DNA of 64,000 nt from Halieaceae bacterium (GTDB taxonomy: Bacteria; Pseudomonadota; Gammaproteobacteria; Pseudomonadales; Halieaceae): the NCBI GenBank assembly GCA_902613175.1, contig CACMGJ010000005.1, forward strand, positions 1-64,000, written 5' to 3'. A program made the translations under genes and the position numbers. Positions within the stretch are counted from its first letter, which is position 1; each line of letters begins with the position of its first letter. The notes beneath the pieces are model-generated. The model saw only the letters and a program-made list of their open reading frames with translations, was not told the origin of the DNA and searched no databases. This document shows, piece after piece, positions 31,774-53,976 of the stretch.

Positions 31774-33321
31774 ATGGTTTCCAGGTTATGGCGGTCGTCA
31801 CCCCATGGGCGACTGAATTTTAGTTGGATTTTCATTATTGCCTGTATTTGTGGTGCGCGGGCAGTCTCCGCATCGGGCGAGGCAACGCAAGACTCAGTAG
31901 TCCGACCCAACATTGTCATCTTGTATGCAGACGACATGGGATGGGGCGATACAGGTGCCTACGGCCATCCCTACATCAAAACCCCTTCGTTGGACCGACT
32001 CGCCAACGAGGGCCAGCGCTGGACCGACTTTTATGTGCCCGCTCCCGTGTGCTCGCCGAGCCGCGCTGCACTGCTCACGGGACGACATCCTGTCCGCTCG
32101 GGGCTCTATGGCGTGGGCAGTCCGGTGTTATTTCCGGACGACAAGTACGGTATCCCTGAGAGTGAAGTGACGCTTGCGGAGATGCTCAAGGACGCGGGTT
32201 ATCTCACCGCCATCATGGGAAAGTGGCACCTGGGTGATGCACCTGAACACTTTCCCACGCGCCATGGTTTCGATTACTGGTTTGGCATCCCCTACTCCAA
32301 CGACATGAAGTTCGAGGGAAGACCGGGTATCGAAGAACTGTTCATGATGCAACAGACCGGTAAGACGGAAGCGTTACACAAGATCCTGAATGACTTCCTG
32401 ATCGCCTTTGAGGACCCGGATTCATCAAACTACGACGTCCCTCTGTGGCGAAGTCGCTGTGACAAGGCTATCTGTGAGGACGAACTGTTAGAGCAACCCA
32501 CCTTTCAGCCAAACCTGACGACCCGTCTTACGCATGAGGCGACTCGATTCATAGAGGAAGTAAAAGAAGAGCCCTTCTTGCTCTACCTGCCCTATACCAT
32601 CCCCCACCTCCCCGTTTTTGTCGATGAGCCTTTTCAAGGACAGAGTTTGGCGGGGCCCTACGGTGACGCCATCGAAGAGATCGATTGGAGCGTGGGCGAA
32701 ATTATTAGTGCTCTAGAGAAAGCAACCATCGACGACAATACGCTCGTCTTCTTCTCAAGTGATAACGGACCCTGGCAATTAGCGAGTATTCATCTCGCGG
32801 GAAGCACAGGCCCCTTCAAAGGTTCCAAACAGGAAATTTACGAAGGCGGTGTTCGCGTCCCCGGTATCTTTTGGTGGCCCGGTACCATTGCACCCGAGGT
32901 CATCTCGGACATGGGCAGCGTACTTGATCTCTACCGAACCATTGCAGCTATCCTCGAGTTAGATACCCCTCAAACACTCGACAGCCACAACCTCACTCCC
33001 GCACTGGTCGAGGGCGATAAAGGTCCGCGAGAAGAAATCGCGTTCTACCGAAAGGGTGAGCTACGGGCCTATCGCAAAGGCGACTTCAAACTTCATCTAT
33101 TCGACCAACCACAAGGTGGCGAGCCGCTAGAAACACCTGAGCTCTACAACTTAAGACGTGATCTAGGCGAAAAGGACAACATCGCTGACAAACACCCAGA
33201 GATTGTGGCGGATATTTTAAGTGCCATCGCCATCCATAAAGCCAATCTGCCCCGCAAGCCGCCCTTATTTGATCAGCGCTTTGTCGACATGATGAACCGC
33301 GCTGCAGAGTCTGGACGATAA
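31774..33321 (+). CDS. Exported type I sulfatase
   Basis: A 515-residue arylsulfatase-superfamily enzyme. The calcium site is 'YADDMGWGDTG' (D53, D54). The formylglycine motif is 'CSPSRAALLTGR' (C93), which matches CxPxR and needs FGE activation. Further ligands are 'GKWHLGD', 'HLPVFVDEPF' and 'SSDNGPW'. An N-terminal hydrophobic segment (18–28) serves as a signal sequence. GAGGA precedes the start. It is followed by RidA and PhyH genes. The 100-residue insertion around 'RSRCDKAICEDEL' with two Cys pairs is typical of desulfating enzymes for glycans. The exact family (S1_14-like) is not resolved. Confidence 0.92.
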   Translation: MVSRLWRSSPHGRLNFSWIFIIACICGARAVSASGEATQDSVVRPNIVILYADDMGWGDTGAYGHPYIKTPSLDRLANEGQRWTDFYVPAPVCSPSRAALLTGRHPVRSGLYGVGSPVLFPDDKYGIPESEVTLAEMLKDAGYLTAIMGKWHLGDAPEHFPTRHGFDYWFGIPYSNDMKFEGRPGIEELFMMQQTGKTEALHKILNDFLIAFEDPDSSNYDVPLWRSRCDKAICEDELLEQPTFQPNLTTRLTHEATRFIEEVKEEPFLLYLPYTIPHLPVFVDEPFQGQSLAGPYGDAIEEIDWSVGEIISALEKATIDDNTLVFFSSDNGPWQLASIHLAGSTGPFKGSKQEIYEGGVRVPGIFWWPGTIAPEVISDMGSVLDLYRTIAAILELDTPQTLDSHNLTPALVEGDKGPREEIAFYRKGELRAYRKGDFKLHLFDQPQGGEPLETPELYNLRRDLGEKDNIADKHPEIVADILSAIAIHKANLPRKPPLFDQRFVDMMNRAAESGR

Positions 33322-34796: not shown

Positions 34797-34874
<78 letters not shown>

Positions 34875-35785: not shown

Positions 35786-37147
35786 TTACAGCTCCAAATA
35801 GCGCATCATCGCATCATAGATATCGCGTTGACGCATGAAAGGACTTAAGACTGATTCGGCCTCAGAGTTAGCAAATAGGGGTACGTTAGCACCCGTGTGT
35901 TCCTCTGAGCGGATATTGTTTGTAGCGTAGTTAATCCGCATCACACTGCCCTCGGGGGTCACAATACGCGCGACCTTTCCCGGACTGAACACAGGAATGG
36001 GTAAAGAGGTGTATAAGGTGGGATCCGGCACAATCTGGGCAGCTTGAGAGTGGTCAGCCGTGACCATAATGAGTGTATTGGGATTGTCACTCGCGTAATC
36101 CATGGCAACTGCGAGCGCTTCCTCTAGCTGTTTGATTTCACCAATTGAACCGCAAGCATCACGTTCATGACTCTTCTTATCAATAGAGGCGGATTCGATA
36201 GTTAAGAAGAAGCCCTTGTCATTGTCGCGAGATAAGTGATCGAGGGCATACCGTGTCATCGCCTTCATGGTAGGCATCTCAGCGAAGCTCGGGTTGGCTT
36301 CACACTCGATCACCTCCGGTTGAGTGATGGAGCCAATCATTTCATGGATGTGGTTCAGCCAGCTTCGCTCGATGGACTCGGCGATTCGACCATTTTTTCC
36401 GCGCCATGCCACGGGCATGGTGTCCTCGGAAAACAGACCGATAACGCGACCCGAGTATTGCTGGTATAGCGCGTTACGTTCGGTCAGGATGGTCACACCT
36501 TGTTCCTGAGCCAACGCGAGTGCTGTTGGATCTGACTCATAACGAGCGACAAAGTGCTCCATACCACCGCCGAGGATGACGTCTACATTAGCGACCGCGA
36601 GTTGCTCGGAGATAGAACCCAAGCCGCCGTTCTCTTTTAGATCCTCGGGACAGCCGTCGAACGTCACGCCGTATTTTTCGCCACCGCGAATCGTGACTGG
36701 ATTCTCGCAAGCGCGAATTGTGACATGAGCAGCAAAGGCTGCGGGTGATGCATCTGTGATGGACGCGGTACTAACGATCCCCGTTTTGTAGCCAGCACTC
36801 GCTGCAGACTCGAGTACTGTTTTTACAGACTGATCGGCCGCGTTTTTGCCAATCCTACCAATCTGTGTGATGGCACCCGTCGCCAGGGTTGTCGCTGTAT
36901 TCGCCGAGTCCGCAACATAAATCGGTGTGCCTTCGCTGTTGACCGTTTCAACCTGCACAGCGCCGCGAAAGGGCATTTGATCGAGCAGTAATTGTCCGGC
37001 TTGTCCTTTGAGATAATTACGGCCCATCGTGACGTGAATGTCGTCAAATCCATCACCAATAATGAGAATGACAGCTCGTTCGTCTGCGATGACAGGCTGT
37101 GTCGCCATGGCAATTATGACGGCTGCTGCGGATAAGATGTTGCGCAT
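35786..37147 (-). CDS. Exported alkaline phosphatase
   Basis: A 453-residue PhoA-family phosphatase. The start chosen (37147) begins a clean signal peptide 'MRNILSAAAVIIAMATQPVI', then ADE; the 38 residues added by the ORF track look untranslated. Motifs: metal site 'LIIGDGFDDIHV', nucleophile in 'VADSANTATTLATG' (Ser81), 'SITDASPAAFAAH', 'IESASIDKKSHE', 'VTADHSQAAQ' and 'EEHTGANVPLFA'. It acts in the periplasm to release phosphate from esters. It shares module 1 with a TonB receptor and a second secreted phosphatase and runs divergently from them. Confidence 0.92.
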   Translation of the reverse strand: MRNILSAAAVIIAMATQPVIADERAVILIIGDGFDDIHVTMGRNYLKGQAGQLLLDQMPFRGAVQVETVNSEGTPIYVADSANTATTLATGAITQIGRIGKNAADQSVKTVLESAASAGYKTGIVSTASITDASPAAFAAHVTIRACENPVTIRGGEKYGVTFDGCPEDLKENGGLGSISEQLAVANVDVILGGGMEHFVARYESDPTALALAQEQGVTILTERNALYQQYSGRVIGLFSEDTMPVAWRGKNGRIAESIERSWLNHIHEMIGSITQPEVIECEANPSFAEMPTMKAMTRYALDHLSRDNDKGFFLTIESASIDKKSHERDACGSIGEIKQLEEALAVAMDYASDNPNTLIMVTADHSQAAQIVPDPTLYTSLPIPVFSPGKVARIVTPEGSVMRINYATNNIRSEEHTGANVPLFANSEAESVLSPFMRQRDIYDAMMRYLEL

Positions 37148-37379
37148 GAGATACCTATTAGTTGCCCAGAGTGATCGTTTTTGTGAGCGGAGAATAAACC
37201 CAATGTGGTTGGATAAAAACCCTGACAACCCGGACGGTTTTTCACATGGCGTGTCATCCATGGGTGGACAGCTTTACGTCCAAATCTAAAGAGTCACCGA
37301 AGGTTAACATTCGAGTAACTCCAGATTAATCGATGGTCGTTATAACAATAGAAAGTTTTTCCTAAGCAGGTACACCTTA

Positions 37380-39849
37380 ATGTTCGCCTCACCCAGATTA
37401 AACTTTTTAAACCTTTTATCAATAGCGGTACTGATCGCATCGCACGGTTCCTTGGCTCAAGATCGTCAACTTGAAGAAGTGATCGTTACCAGCTCGCCAA
37501 TTAAGCAATCAGAGATGGCTTCGATTGAGGCAAAGCGCTTCGCTGTGAATGTTCTTGATGCCGTTTCTGCTGACACCATAGGACGTTTCCCAGACCAAAA
37601 CCTTGCAGACTCGTTGGCTCGAGTGCCTGGCGTCGCTATCGAACGAGACCAAGGACAAGCACGTTATGTAAATCTACGTGGCGCTCCGTTTAGGTACACC
37701 GCAATTGCGTTCAACGGCATCGATGTCCCGGGCGCGGAAAATGGTCGAATTCCTCGTTTTGACAGCTTTCCAGCGGTGATTACCCGCAGGCTCACGGTGA
37801 ACAAGGCCATAACGGCAGATATGCCAGGTGAAGCGGTCTCAGGATTCGTCAATATCGAGACCAATAGCCCCTTCGACAAAGAAGGTGCGTCTTTTGCGTT
37901 TGACGCGGGCCTCGGTGAGCAAGAGTTGGGGGGGGGGAGACGTCAATAAGCTCAGCTTACGCGGTTCTTTCTCTAACGATAACTTCGGCATTCTCGGTTT
38001 TTATTCCGAGAATAGTCGGGAGCAGGTTACGGACAATCGTGAGTACGATTTGGGCCTCGAGGGTTCAGCGTTAGTCGTTAACGAGCTTGATTACAGATCT
38101 TATTTCATCAAGCGCTCCGATGAGGCCTACGGGTTCAACGCTGAGTATCGTGGTACTGGTGCTGTGTCCCGAGTATTTTTGAACAGCGTGTATTCGGAGT
38201 TCACTGACGAGGAAGAGCGTAATCAGTACGTCTTCGAATTCCTTGCACCTACAGCAGGAGAGACGGGCAGTAACGCGCCGCTTCAGCTAACACGTGCGCT
38301 CGAGGATGGTATCTACGAAAACTCAACGTCTACTAACACCCTTGGTATTGAGTTTACTGCTGCAGAGTTTGACGTAGTTGCCTATTACACGTTCACGGAA
38401 ACGGAGTTCGTGCAGAACTTGCCGATTACCTATCAATTGGCGGGATTTGCCGGACTTACTGCAGATGGACCCGTGCCTTACTTCGGTGATTTTGACGTGA
38501 CCAATATCACCGACCCAATACTTACCCTGAGTGGGAACCCAGCTAACGCTATATTTTTGGCCAATTTCGGTATTGGCTTTTACAGCCCAATGGACCAGGA
38601 AGTCGATAAGTTTAAAGTAGATTTTAAGCGAGCGTTAATGGGCAAAAGCGAACTTAAGTTTGGCCTACAGTTAGACCAGAGAGAAGCCATCGGTGGCGCT
38701 AATACTGTCGCATTTGGAGGCTACCCAGAGGACTTGGCCCTGCGAGTAAATGACTTCGACACTGGCCGACCATGGGTGTCAAACACTACCAATTCCATTG
38801 GAGGCACTTACTTTGACAACCCTGGTTTGGATAGAGCTTGGCAGTCGTACGACATTTATCCTAGTGGTTCGGTTGACCCTGAAAATGCCGTGGCGATAGA
38901 CGAAGACATCCTTGCAGGTTATGTCAGTTACATGAAGTCGACTGATTGGGGCAACTACGTTGTGGGTGTTCGAGTAGAACAGACTGATGTGACCAATCAA
39001 GGAGTTGATGGGTTTGAGTATTCGACAGACTTTACGGATGTGCTACCCAATGCCCACATCAACTTTGATCTCTCGGACAATATGAAGCTTCGCCTCTCTG
39101 CTAGTTCTGGTGTCAACCGCCCTACGTACAACGAGTGGCGCGCTGCAGCAGGCATCGACGTTATTGAAAAGGAGATCTCAGGAGGTAACCCCTCGCTCGA
39201 ATCCGAAACTTCATTTGGATTTGACGCCTCGCTGGAGTACTACCTAGACAGCGGGTCGCTACTATCAGTCGCGGCGTTCACACGCAGTATCGATGATGTG
39301 ATCTACGCTGATTCCAGTACAGTGGATGCAGGAGCCTACATAGTCGAATACGCCGGTGAGCAGTGGGCATACACAGGATTTTTGAACGGTTCAGACGGCA
39401 CATTCTCGGGTGTTGAGTTGAACGCGGTCTACTTTGCGGACCAGATCGTGGAAGGGCTGGGTGTCAGTGTAAATATCACTTTGGCAGATGGCGAATTCAA
39501 GCGCGTCAATGGTGAGAAAGTAGGTTTACCCGGCACTTCAGATTCCATTTACAATGCCGTAGTTTTTTATGAGAACTTTGGTTTGTCCGCAAGAGTCAAC
39601 TATAGCTATCGTAACGAATGGATTTCTCCTATTGAAGATCCAGAGGAGTTTTGGGGCGAGATGGAGCGACTAGACGCCCAGATCTCCTACACGTTTCAAC
39701 GGCCTATCGCCGGTAGTGAAGTCAGTATTTACGCCAACTTCAACAACATTACGGACGAAACGGACGTGAGATTTGCTGGCAACGGTACTATTAATCAGTC
39801 AGAGAGCTATGGCTCGCATTACTTGGTGGGAATACGCGTAAACTACTAA
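37380..39849 (+). CDS. TonB-dependent receptor, split by a frameshift at a G10 tract
   Basis: An outer-membrane receptor of about 822 residues, shown as two ORFs (37380–37949 and 37828–39849) joined across a homopolymer. The first part has a signal peptide ('LLSIAVLIASHGSLA'), then the plug: 'FPDQNLADSLARVPGVAIER' and 'YVNLRGAPFRYTAIAFNGID', as in the TIGR01782-type receptors of Xanthomonas and Caulobacter relatives. The second frame is a strand-rich barrel ending 'SHYLVGIRVNY' with a C-terminal aromatic. Ten Gs (37928–37937) shift the frame; nine would restore a continuous protein. It imports an unknown ligand, perhaps a glycan or a phosphorus compound. Confidence 0.85.
37928..37937 (+). repeat. 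Poly-G tract (G10) in the TonB receptor gene
   Basis: A run of ten G residues about 180 codons into the receptor gene. The upstream ORF reads through it into a stop within five codons, whereas the downstream frame continues the barrel. One fewer G gives an open gene. Confidence 0.8.
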
Positions 39850-39925: not shown

Positions 39926-40852
39926 ATGACATTACGTAATGACTTCACTTATTTATGTGTATCGGCAGTAATCGCAGTGACTTTTGGCCTATTAGCTGGA
40001 CTCTCAAATCAGGTTATTGCTGCCGAGGACAGCGACAACGCTGAAGTACTCAGTTTTAGTTATCGACGATTGTTACCGTTGGAGGGTGGGAGTAATTTTA
40101 GGGACCTGGGTGGCTATCCCACCGATGATGGAGGGCAGGTCAAGCGAGGACTGTTATTTAGATCCGGCGCCATGACGGGGCTTACTGACACAGACCAGAA
40201 TTACTTAGATAACTTTGGATTTAAAACCATAATTGATCTCCGATCGACCGAAGAGGTCGAGCTCTATCCTAATCATTGGGCAGTAGCGTCAAACATCGAC
40301 CATTTGCGGGTGCCGTACAGCATTCTCGAAATGATGGCTCAAGCGGTTGAGGTCTCGGAACAGAAAGATGGCGACAGTCATGGTGGAATGTATGACACGC
40401 TGCTGACCACCATCAAACCGCAGCTAAAGCTCTATTTTAAGGCGCTCCTCCAGGGAAGAGCCCCCCTAGTGGTTAACTGTTCTGCCGGCCAGGACAGGAC
40501 TGGCGTGACCTCAGCGCTTTTGTTGGCTTCGCTTGGTGTGTCGCGAGAGCAAATTATTGAAGACTATCTGCTATCTACCGATTTTAGGCGACCACTGATT
40601 GAGGCGGGCAGTGTTGATCTTACGGAGGCGGCAAAAACAAACGGGTTCGCGGCGATGATGCTGCAGTACGGTGAAGGGAAGGATCCAAGCCGTCCCAGTC
40701 CGCTGGTAACTGCCGAGGGCGTGCCGTTCATTGTCGCTACACTCGAGGGTATAAAAAAACAATATGGCACAGTCGATGCTTACTTAAAATCCGAATTAGG
40801 TCTCAGCGAAGACGACCTCAGTAAACTCAGAGAGCTCTATGTAGCTTACTAG
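39926..40852 (+). CDS. Exported tyrosine-phosphatase-like hydrolase
   Basis: A 308-residue protein with an N-terminal hydrophobic signal ('LCVSAVIAVTFGLLAG...IAA'). The body is the Y_phosphatase3 type of the cysteine phosphatase family: 'NFRDLGGYPTDDGGQVKRG', 'TIIDLRSTEEVELYP' and the P-loop 'VVNCSAGQDRTGV' with C185 and R191. Related enzymes dephosphorylate proteins, phosphoinositides or phytate. Export argues for an extracytoplasmic phosphate ester as substrate. It is the last gene before repeat copy 1 and, with PhoA, suggests that module 1 serves phosphorus acquisition. Confidence 0.85.
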   Translation: MTLRNDFTYLCVSAVIAVTFGLLAGLSNQVIAAEDSDNAEVLSFSYRRLLPLEGGSNFRDLGGYPTDDGGQVKRGLLFRSGAMTGLTDTDQNYLDNFGFKTIIDLRSTEEVELYPNHWAVASNIDHLRVPYSILEMMAQAVEVSEQKDGDSHGGMYDTLLTTIKPQLKLYFKALLQGRAPLVVNCSAGQDRTGVTSALLLASLGVSREQIIEDYLLSTDFRRPLIEAGSVDLTEAAKTNGFAAMMLQYGEGKDPSRPSPLVTAEGVPFIVATLEGIKKQYGTVDAYLKSELGLSEDDLSKLRELYVAY

Positions 40853-40986: not shown

Positions 40987-41032
40987 TTGACATGGTAGAG
41001 GTCGCCAGTTCGAATCTGGCTGGTCCTACCAA
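40987..41032 (+). repeat. tRNA-Val 3'-end direct repeat, copy 1
   Basis: All 46 bases are identical to the tRNA-Val segment 34829–34874, including the anticodon loop and CCA. The 5' half of a tRNA is absent, so this is not a gene. It marks the right end of module 1 and the left end of module 2. Confidence 0.92.
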
Positions 41033-48437: not shown

Positions 48438-48808
48438 GTGGTAACGATTAAGGCTATAGAGCAGCTTTCGATGCTAGTCTGCGCGATGTTCTGACGAGTT
48501 CTGTGAGCCTTGGCATGGTAGAGGTCGCCAGTTCGAATCTGGCTGGTCCTACCAAATCAAGATTCAATCAACCAACCTGCTGTGCATAGCTTCTGCCGAT
48601 CATTGAATTCCACCAATGCGACGCGAAAACAGCGTAAGCTAGCGCGCCCTGTAAACAAATGTTGGTAAATCTATATTGACTCACGCTTAGGTCATATACT
48701 GAACCCAAGTCCAAATAACTTTACACGAGCAATGCGCTCAAAAACCGCACAGAGAAAAAGACAAACAACTCTTAAAAAAAAGAGTTTTTTGAGTTGGAGG
48801 GCAAAGCG
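48438..48808. other. Intergenic region with repeat copy 2
   Basis: It holds the tRNA repeat (48510) and an A/T-rich stretch before the SPINDLY-type gene. A TTGACT...TATACT pair at about 48678 has only a 13-base spacer, so I do not call it a promoter. No gene is visible. Confidence 0.4.
48510..48555 (+). repeat. tRNA-Val 3'-end direct repeat, copy 2
   Basis: 45 of 46 bases match the tRNA segment. The single change is in the anticodon (GAC to GGC). No 5' half is present. It marks the boundary of modules 2 and 3. Confidence 0.92.
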
Positions 48809-51754: not shown

Positions 51755-51800
51755 ATGAAATGGTAGAGATCATCAATTCGAATCTGGCTGGTCCTGCCAA
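51755..51800 (+). repeat. tRNA-Val 3'-end direct repeat, copy 3 (decayed)
   Basis: 39 of 46 bases match. Changes cluster in the anticodon stem and T-stem, while TTCGAATCTGGCTGGTCCT is kept. It separates modules 3 and 4. Confidence 0.82.
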
Positions 51801-53899: not shown

Positions 53900-53927
53900 T
53901 TGACATGGTAGAGGTCGCCAGTTCGAA
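53900..53927 (+). repeat. tRNA-Val 3'-end direct repeat, copy 4 (truncated)
   Basis: The first 28 bases of the repeat are intact (anticodon loop to T-loop, TTGACATGG...TTCGAA). The T-stem 3' half and acceptor part are missing; the sequence passes straight into unrelated bases. It is the right end of the visible array. Confidence 0.88.
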
Positions 53928-53976
53928 AAACGCGACCTTAGAATCTATAGAGCAATCAAACGGTAGCATCCCGCCG

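Follow-up and report, generated by a model that had tools for sequence, protein, structure and literature searches.

The receptor locus described here lies in a stretch of DNA of 64,000 nucleotides, referred to as the window (G000:C5:1-64000), from the draft genome of an uncultured marine bacterium, which comprises 1.90 Mb in 82 contigs and is 58.6% complete. The named relatives of the locus belong to the Halieaceae, OM60/NOR5 clade, and include MED-G27. A gene for an outer-membrane receptor is found here in two pieces, with the frame shifted at a run of exactly ten Gs in the window sequence, and it is flanked by two phosphatase genes within a module of 6.1 kb that extends from a tRNA-Val gene to a copy of its 3' end. 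The features of the locus are:

34797..34873, + strand: tRNA-Val (gac), with the left-hand direct repeat of the module at its 3' end
35786..37261, - strand: alkaline phosphatase gene, transcribed away from the receptor
37380..37949, + strand: upstream receptor piece of 189 aa, with a signal-like N-terminus and a TonB plug domain, stopping just past the G run
37928..37937, + strand: ten-G run, frame-shifting; its codons are interrupted in relatives
37936..39849, + strand: downstream receptor piece of 637 codons and a stop, carrying the beta-barrel in a different frame (mechanical ORF 37828-39849)
39926..40852, + strand: tyrosine phosphatase family gene (PF13350), 3' of the receptor
40991..41031, + strand: right-hand limit of the receptor module, a 41-bp repeat identical to the 3' end of tRNA-Val

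The receptor gene and its module

The upstream frame begins with the ATG at 37380, closes with a stop codon that ends at 37949, and has a Pfam Plug domain at residues 59-155, while the downstream frame is open from 37936 to the stop at 39849, has its nearest start at a GTG (37828), and carries the TonB_dep_Rec beta-barrel. Consecutive parts of the TIGR01782 profile are matched by the two pieces (1-157 and 204-867, at 180 and 250 bits). The MED-G27 orthologue (G019, locus L011), with 89% nucleotide identity to the receptor gene, encodes a single uninterrupted protein of 822 aa that passes the curated cut-off of the same profile (436 vs. 310 bits). With both plug and barrel predicted, the gene product is a TonB-dependent receptor of the TIGR01782 (TonB-Xanth-Caul) type. 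An initial annotation had described the gene as intact save for one extra G, nine Gs being in frame, and this description is borne out by a codon alignment to the MED-G27 orthologue (182 + 637 codons), in which the search for a second lesion found no gap and no internal stop. It had also predicted one continuous receptor of 820 residues; the single receptor stands, with its length corrected to 822 residues from the orthologue. Relative to MED-G27, dN/dS is 0.089 before the run and 0.091 after it. Such strong purifying selection, together with the intact flanks, implies that the receptor gene still works or lost its function only very recently. The ratio does not tell a technical error from a fresh mutation or from switching, because all three keep the rest of the gene intact. 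A promoter scan 5' of the receptor found nothing.

Repeats of the tRNA-Val(gac) 3' end are found at 34833-34873, 40991-41031 (41/41), 48514-48554 (41/41), 51759-51799 (35/41), and, in partial form, at about 53900-53940. Those to the right mark further consecutive modules with metabolic and sulfatase genes, and the array as a whole looks like a tandem of tRNA-targeted islands. The core of the receptor module is common to MED-G27 and G018 (locus L017), minus the alkaline phosphatase gene, which sits between ORF 35070 and the receptor and is absent from that position in both relatives. Among those large ORFs between 33.7 and 64 kb that were scanned, no integrase family was recognized. The placement of the receptor in a mobile module, as first annotated, is compatible with this layout and its att-like ends, and the module may deserve more attention than the G run itself.

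Guanine runs in relatives, in the draft, and across the genus

At the site of the G run, all nine relatives examined are in frame and interrupted, either by interrupted codons or by other residues. The Leu-Gly-Gly-Gly-Asp site reads TTG GGT GGT GGA GAC in MED-G27 and TTG GGT GGA GGA GAC in G018, while remoter relatives have GGC codons or other residues. The conservation of the tract among orthologues that marks a contingency locus is not seen in these genomes (0/9 keep the run); the closest relative of the draft at other loci, G001, has no match to the receptor gene. An in-frame form of the run requires no more than a pair of GGG codons, placed between a conserved TTG and a conserved GGA, and GGG accounts for 13% of the Gly codons of long ORFs (445 kb of the draft sampled). 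By codon usage, the run could easily have originated by chance through synonymous drift. Overlapping 8-mer G matches number four in the window vs. 1.14 expected, a count reached in 8 of 100 shuffles, so that the ten-G run is unremarkable against chance.

Exact G runs in the draft fall steadily in number with length, from 29 of seven to 5 of eight, 3 of nine, and 1 of ten. The genome does not show the enrichment in long tracts, chiefly in surface genes, that accompanies contingency loci: there is no peak at nine to ten Gs, and the only other coding run of at least nine lies in alanine dehydrogenase (ald). The four runs of at least nine Gs comprise two outside coding frames (C12:49445 and C17:21530) and two within genes, the receptor (G10) and ald (G9), both of which are out of frame by +1. 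The ald gene (C1:120509-120517, L006) is split by its G9 within the NAD-binding VVVIGGGVVG motif; in G001, the closest available relative and 98% identical, the run is G8 and the frame is open throughout, and in other relatives the site is made of interrupted codons, e.g., GGTGGAGGT. In mutY (C11, about 43730; L076), a run of seven Cs separates the glycosylase from the NUDIX part, again by +1, and G001 is in frame with six Cs. Where a coding run has exactly eight Gs, as in Mpl, serS, and other genes, the frame is kept; as coding runs of at least nine carry the +1, the fault rises with run length. Like changes in length, of the kind by which an artefact is recognized, are found at runs in unrelated genes of one draft (ald, G9 vs. 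G8; mutY, C7 with six in frame). Because ald is a cytosolic catabolic gene and mutY functions in DNA repair, both are implausible contingency genes, and instability or mis-measurement of G/C runs is a likelier common cause than selection on the receptor.

The general quality of the draft bears on this reading. An alignment to G001 over about 120 kb of contig C1, with identities of 82-99% by block, contains 36 indels, and only two draft-specific, uncompensated coding frameshifts appear over this length: the +1 in ald and a -1 in an HD-domain gene that is without a long run. The draft is therefore not full of indels; trouble is rare and, as far as seen, tends towards long runs. An A7 homopolymer gain of +1 in an acyl-CoA dehydrogenase gene (C6, about 31900-32700; L196) was considered and rejected, as relative to G001 the gene has a net change of -2 and has lost a further stretch of about 170 bp, making it a real pseudogene. 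A mismatch-repair mutator was likewise rejected, mutS and mutL both being open. Taken together, the fairly clean draft, the open repair genes, and the real pseudogene favour technical error while keeping chance mutation alive. A codon-based frameshift scan of about 445 kb in stretches was noisy, most matches being overlapping neighbour genes, and missed mutY; run on 200 kb of each of two complete genomes, it returned 0 raw matches for G006 and 3 for G044, and in view of the noise no formal frameshift rate is claimed.

Across many genomes of the genus, G runs of at least nine at the loci inspected fall mainly in ordinary genes or between genes, and most genic ones are in frame; this survey is an inspection of loci. 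Read from their translations, the genes concerned presumably include ftsH, hisS, truB, infB (antisense), ispE, and L-serine dehydratase. One further clear +1 at a G10 was found, in a P-loop NTPase of G051 (L110) and not in a surface receptor. No other inspected run in the genus breaks a TonB receptor.

Several tracts seen in the course of this survey are of separate interest. A G10 lies about 100 bp 5' of the likely start of a TonB receptor (G063:C29, about 10083; L156) and is a candidate promoter or leader tract. Two predicted lipoproteins carry an in-frame run just behind the lipobox cysteine, a G13 in one with DUF1800 (G049:C57:2133; L031) and a G10 in the other (G009:C13:40176; L171), both candidates for variation in tract length. 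A public assembly of the genus contains a run of about 88 Gs (G047:C116:5379-5466) that is probably a sequencing artefact; if so, poly-G artefacts persist into such assemblies.

Origin of the extra G

The preferred explanation is that the receptor gene would be whole in the organism and the extra G present only in the draft. Synonymous changes from GGT to GGG would have built up the run by drift, at three successive Gly residues whose codons are mixed in relatives, and a length error of polymerase, amplification, sequencing, or assembly at the long run, surviving into the consensus, would have added one G. Homopolymer tracts are a known source of artefacts in both sequencing and bioinformatic analysis (PMC8808543). 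The explanation is favoured by the +1 at both coding G runs of at least nine and at the mutY C run, the in-frame runs of eight, the open mutS and mutL, the incomplete state of the draft, and the low dN/dS on both sides of the run. The run itself and the lesions in ald and mutY are observed, whereas a technical origin of the extra G, and its absence from cells, is an inference with slightly better than an even chance of being correct. The scarcity of draft-specific frameshifts in the C1 alignment, one of the two being without a long run, counts against this explanation, as does the presence of at least one real pseudogene. Should the extra G instead be present in cells, a chance slippage mutation would be the next best account, ahead of a dedicated switch. 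Long G runs generally slip in vivo, and the sequenced cell or population may have ten Gs by chance, with the receptor off and no evolved switch. The similar changes in ald and mutY fit incidental slippage of this kind, as does the real pseudogene, which indicates that gene loss occurs in the lineage; however, a core dehydrogenase, mutY, and the receptor would all have to be lost in one genome without a mismatch-repair defect, and such an origin is possible rather than probable. Two routes by which a ten-G gene might still yield receptor were also considered. RNA polymerase can slip on long homopolymers, and some nine-G messages could provide a low level of receptor despite ten-G DNA, but nothing in the analysis points to this and the run is not kept in relatives; it is the most remote of the readings considered here. 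A ribosomal -1 slip was rejected by frame arithmetic, as it enters the wrong frame. An old, dead pseudogene would account for the broken reading frame and is scarcely more credible, as no second lesion is found in 2.47 kb at 89% nucleotide identity and dN/dS is 0.09 in both pieces, a value that excludes it for practical purposes.

The initial annotation had raised a slipped-strand switch as a possibility, with an error in the run as its alternative. As a phase-variable gene, the receptor would have the G run as a contingency tract whose length changes by slipped-strand mispairing, with multiples of three (9, 12) giving the receptor (ON) and other lengths a truncated plug fragment, in the case of ten Gs the 189-residue fragment without a barrel. 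The tract lies within the ORF of an outer-membrane receptor, where it is placed to alter expression, its flanks are intact and constrained, its length falls in the range of switching tracts in Campylobacter, eight or more (PMC6321876), and meningococcal HmbR and HpuAB provide direct precedent (PMC3786947). Against such switching stand the failure of any of the nine relatives to keep the tract, the like lesion in cytosolic genes, a genome with no excess of tracts of nine to ten Gs, and the lack of any TonB receptor broken by the other runs inspected in the genus, and the proposal is unlikely. In the fullest form of the proposal, a marine, free-living gammaproteobacterium (of the Halieaceae, judging by named relatives) would switch a TIGR01782-type receptor through a recently arisen poly-G tract, within a tRNA-Val-bounded mobile module, as bet-hedging of nutrient uptake against phage attack; this version is, if anything, more doubtful still. 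The switch is not upheld, and the error that was named as its alternative fits the ald and mutY gains, the relatives, and the genome counts better, as does chance slippage. The receptor frameshift seems to reflect chance or a technical error at a run of Gs rather than an evolved on/off switch, because the +1 gain also breaks metabolic and repair genes of the draft.

Comparison with known phase-variable loci and homopolymer artefacts

If the switch were true, poly-G contingency loci, known from host-adapted bacteria, would extend to nutrient receptors of a free-living marine lineage. The literature searched contained no paper pairing Halieaceae with phase variation, and nothing usable on G-run errors in single-cell genomes. 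A practical caution follows for draft genomes, in which a frameshift at a G run of a surface gene should be weighed against G runs that lie in the housekeeping genes of that draft before phase variation is called.

The closest counterparts are HmbR and HpuAB of Neisseria meningitidis, which share with the present gene a function in TonB-dependent uptake across the outer membrane and a poly-G run within the ORF (PMC3786947; PMC3352162). In those systems length variation between isolates and ON/OFF states have been measured, whereas here there is one sequence, a tract that is not conserved, and a lesion that occurs in cytosolic genes as well. The poly-G contingency loci of Campylobacter also have tracts of nine to ten within ORFs, but these loci form a core gene set and their poly-G/C tracts are most often nine (53%) or ten (26%) bases long (PMC6321876), whereas in the present draft longer runs are steadily fewer and the tract occurs in one genome only. 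The receptor locus is not classed as phase-variable on this comparison: it has the anatomy of a contingency locus, and it lacks both tract conservation and genome-wide enrichment. Its likeness to described homopolymer artefacts (PMC8808543) lies in a one-base change confined to a long run and recurring in several unrelated genes of one draft, a likeness drawn here from assembled sequence.
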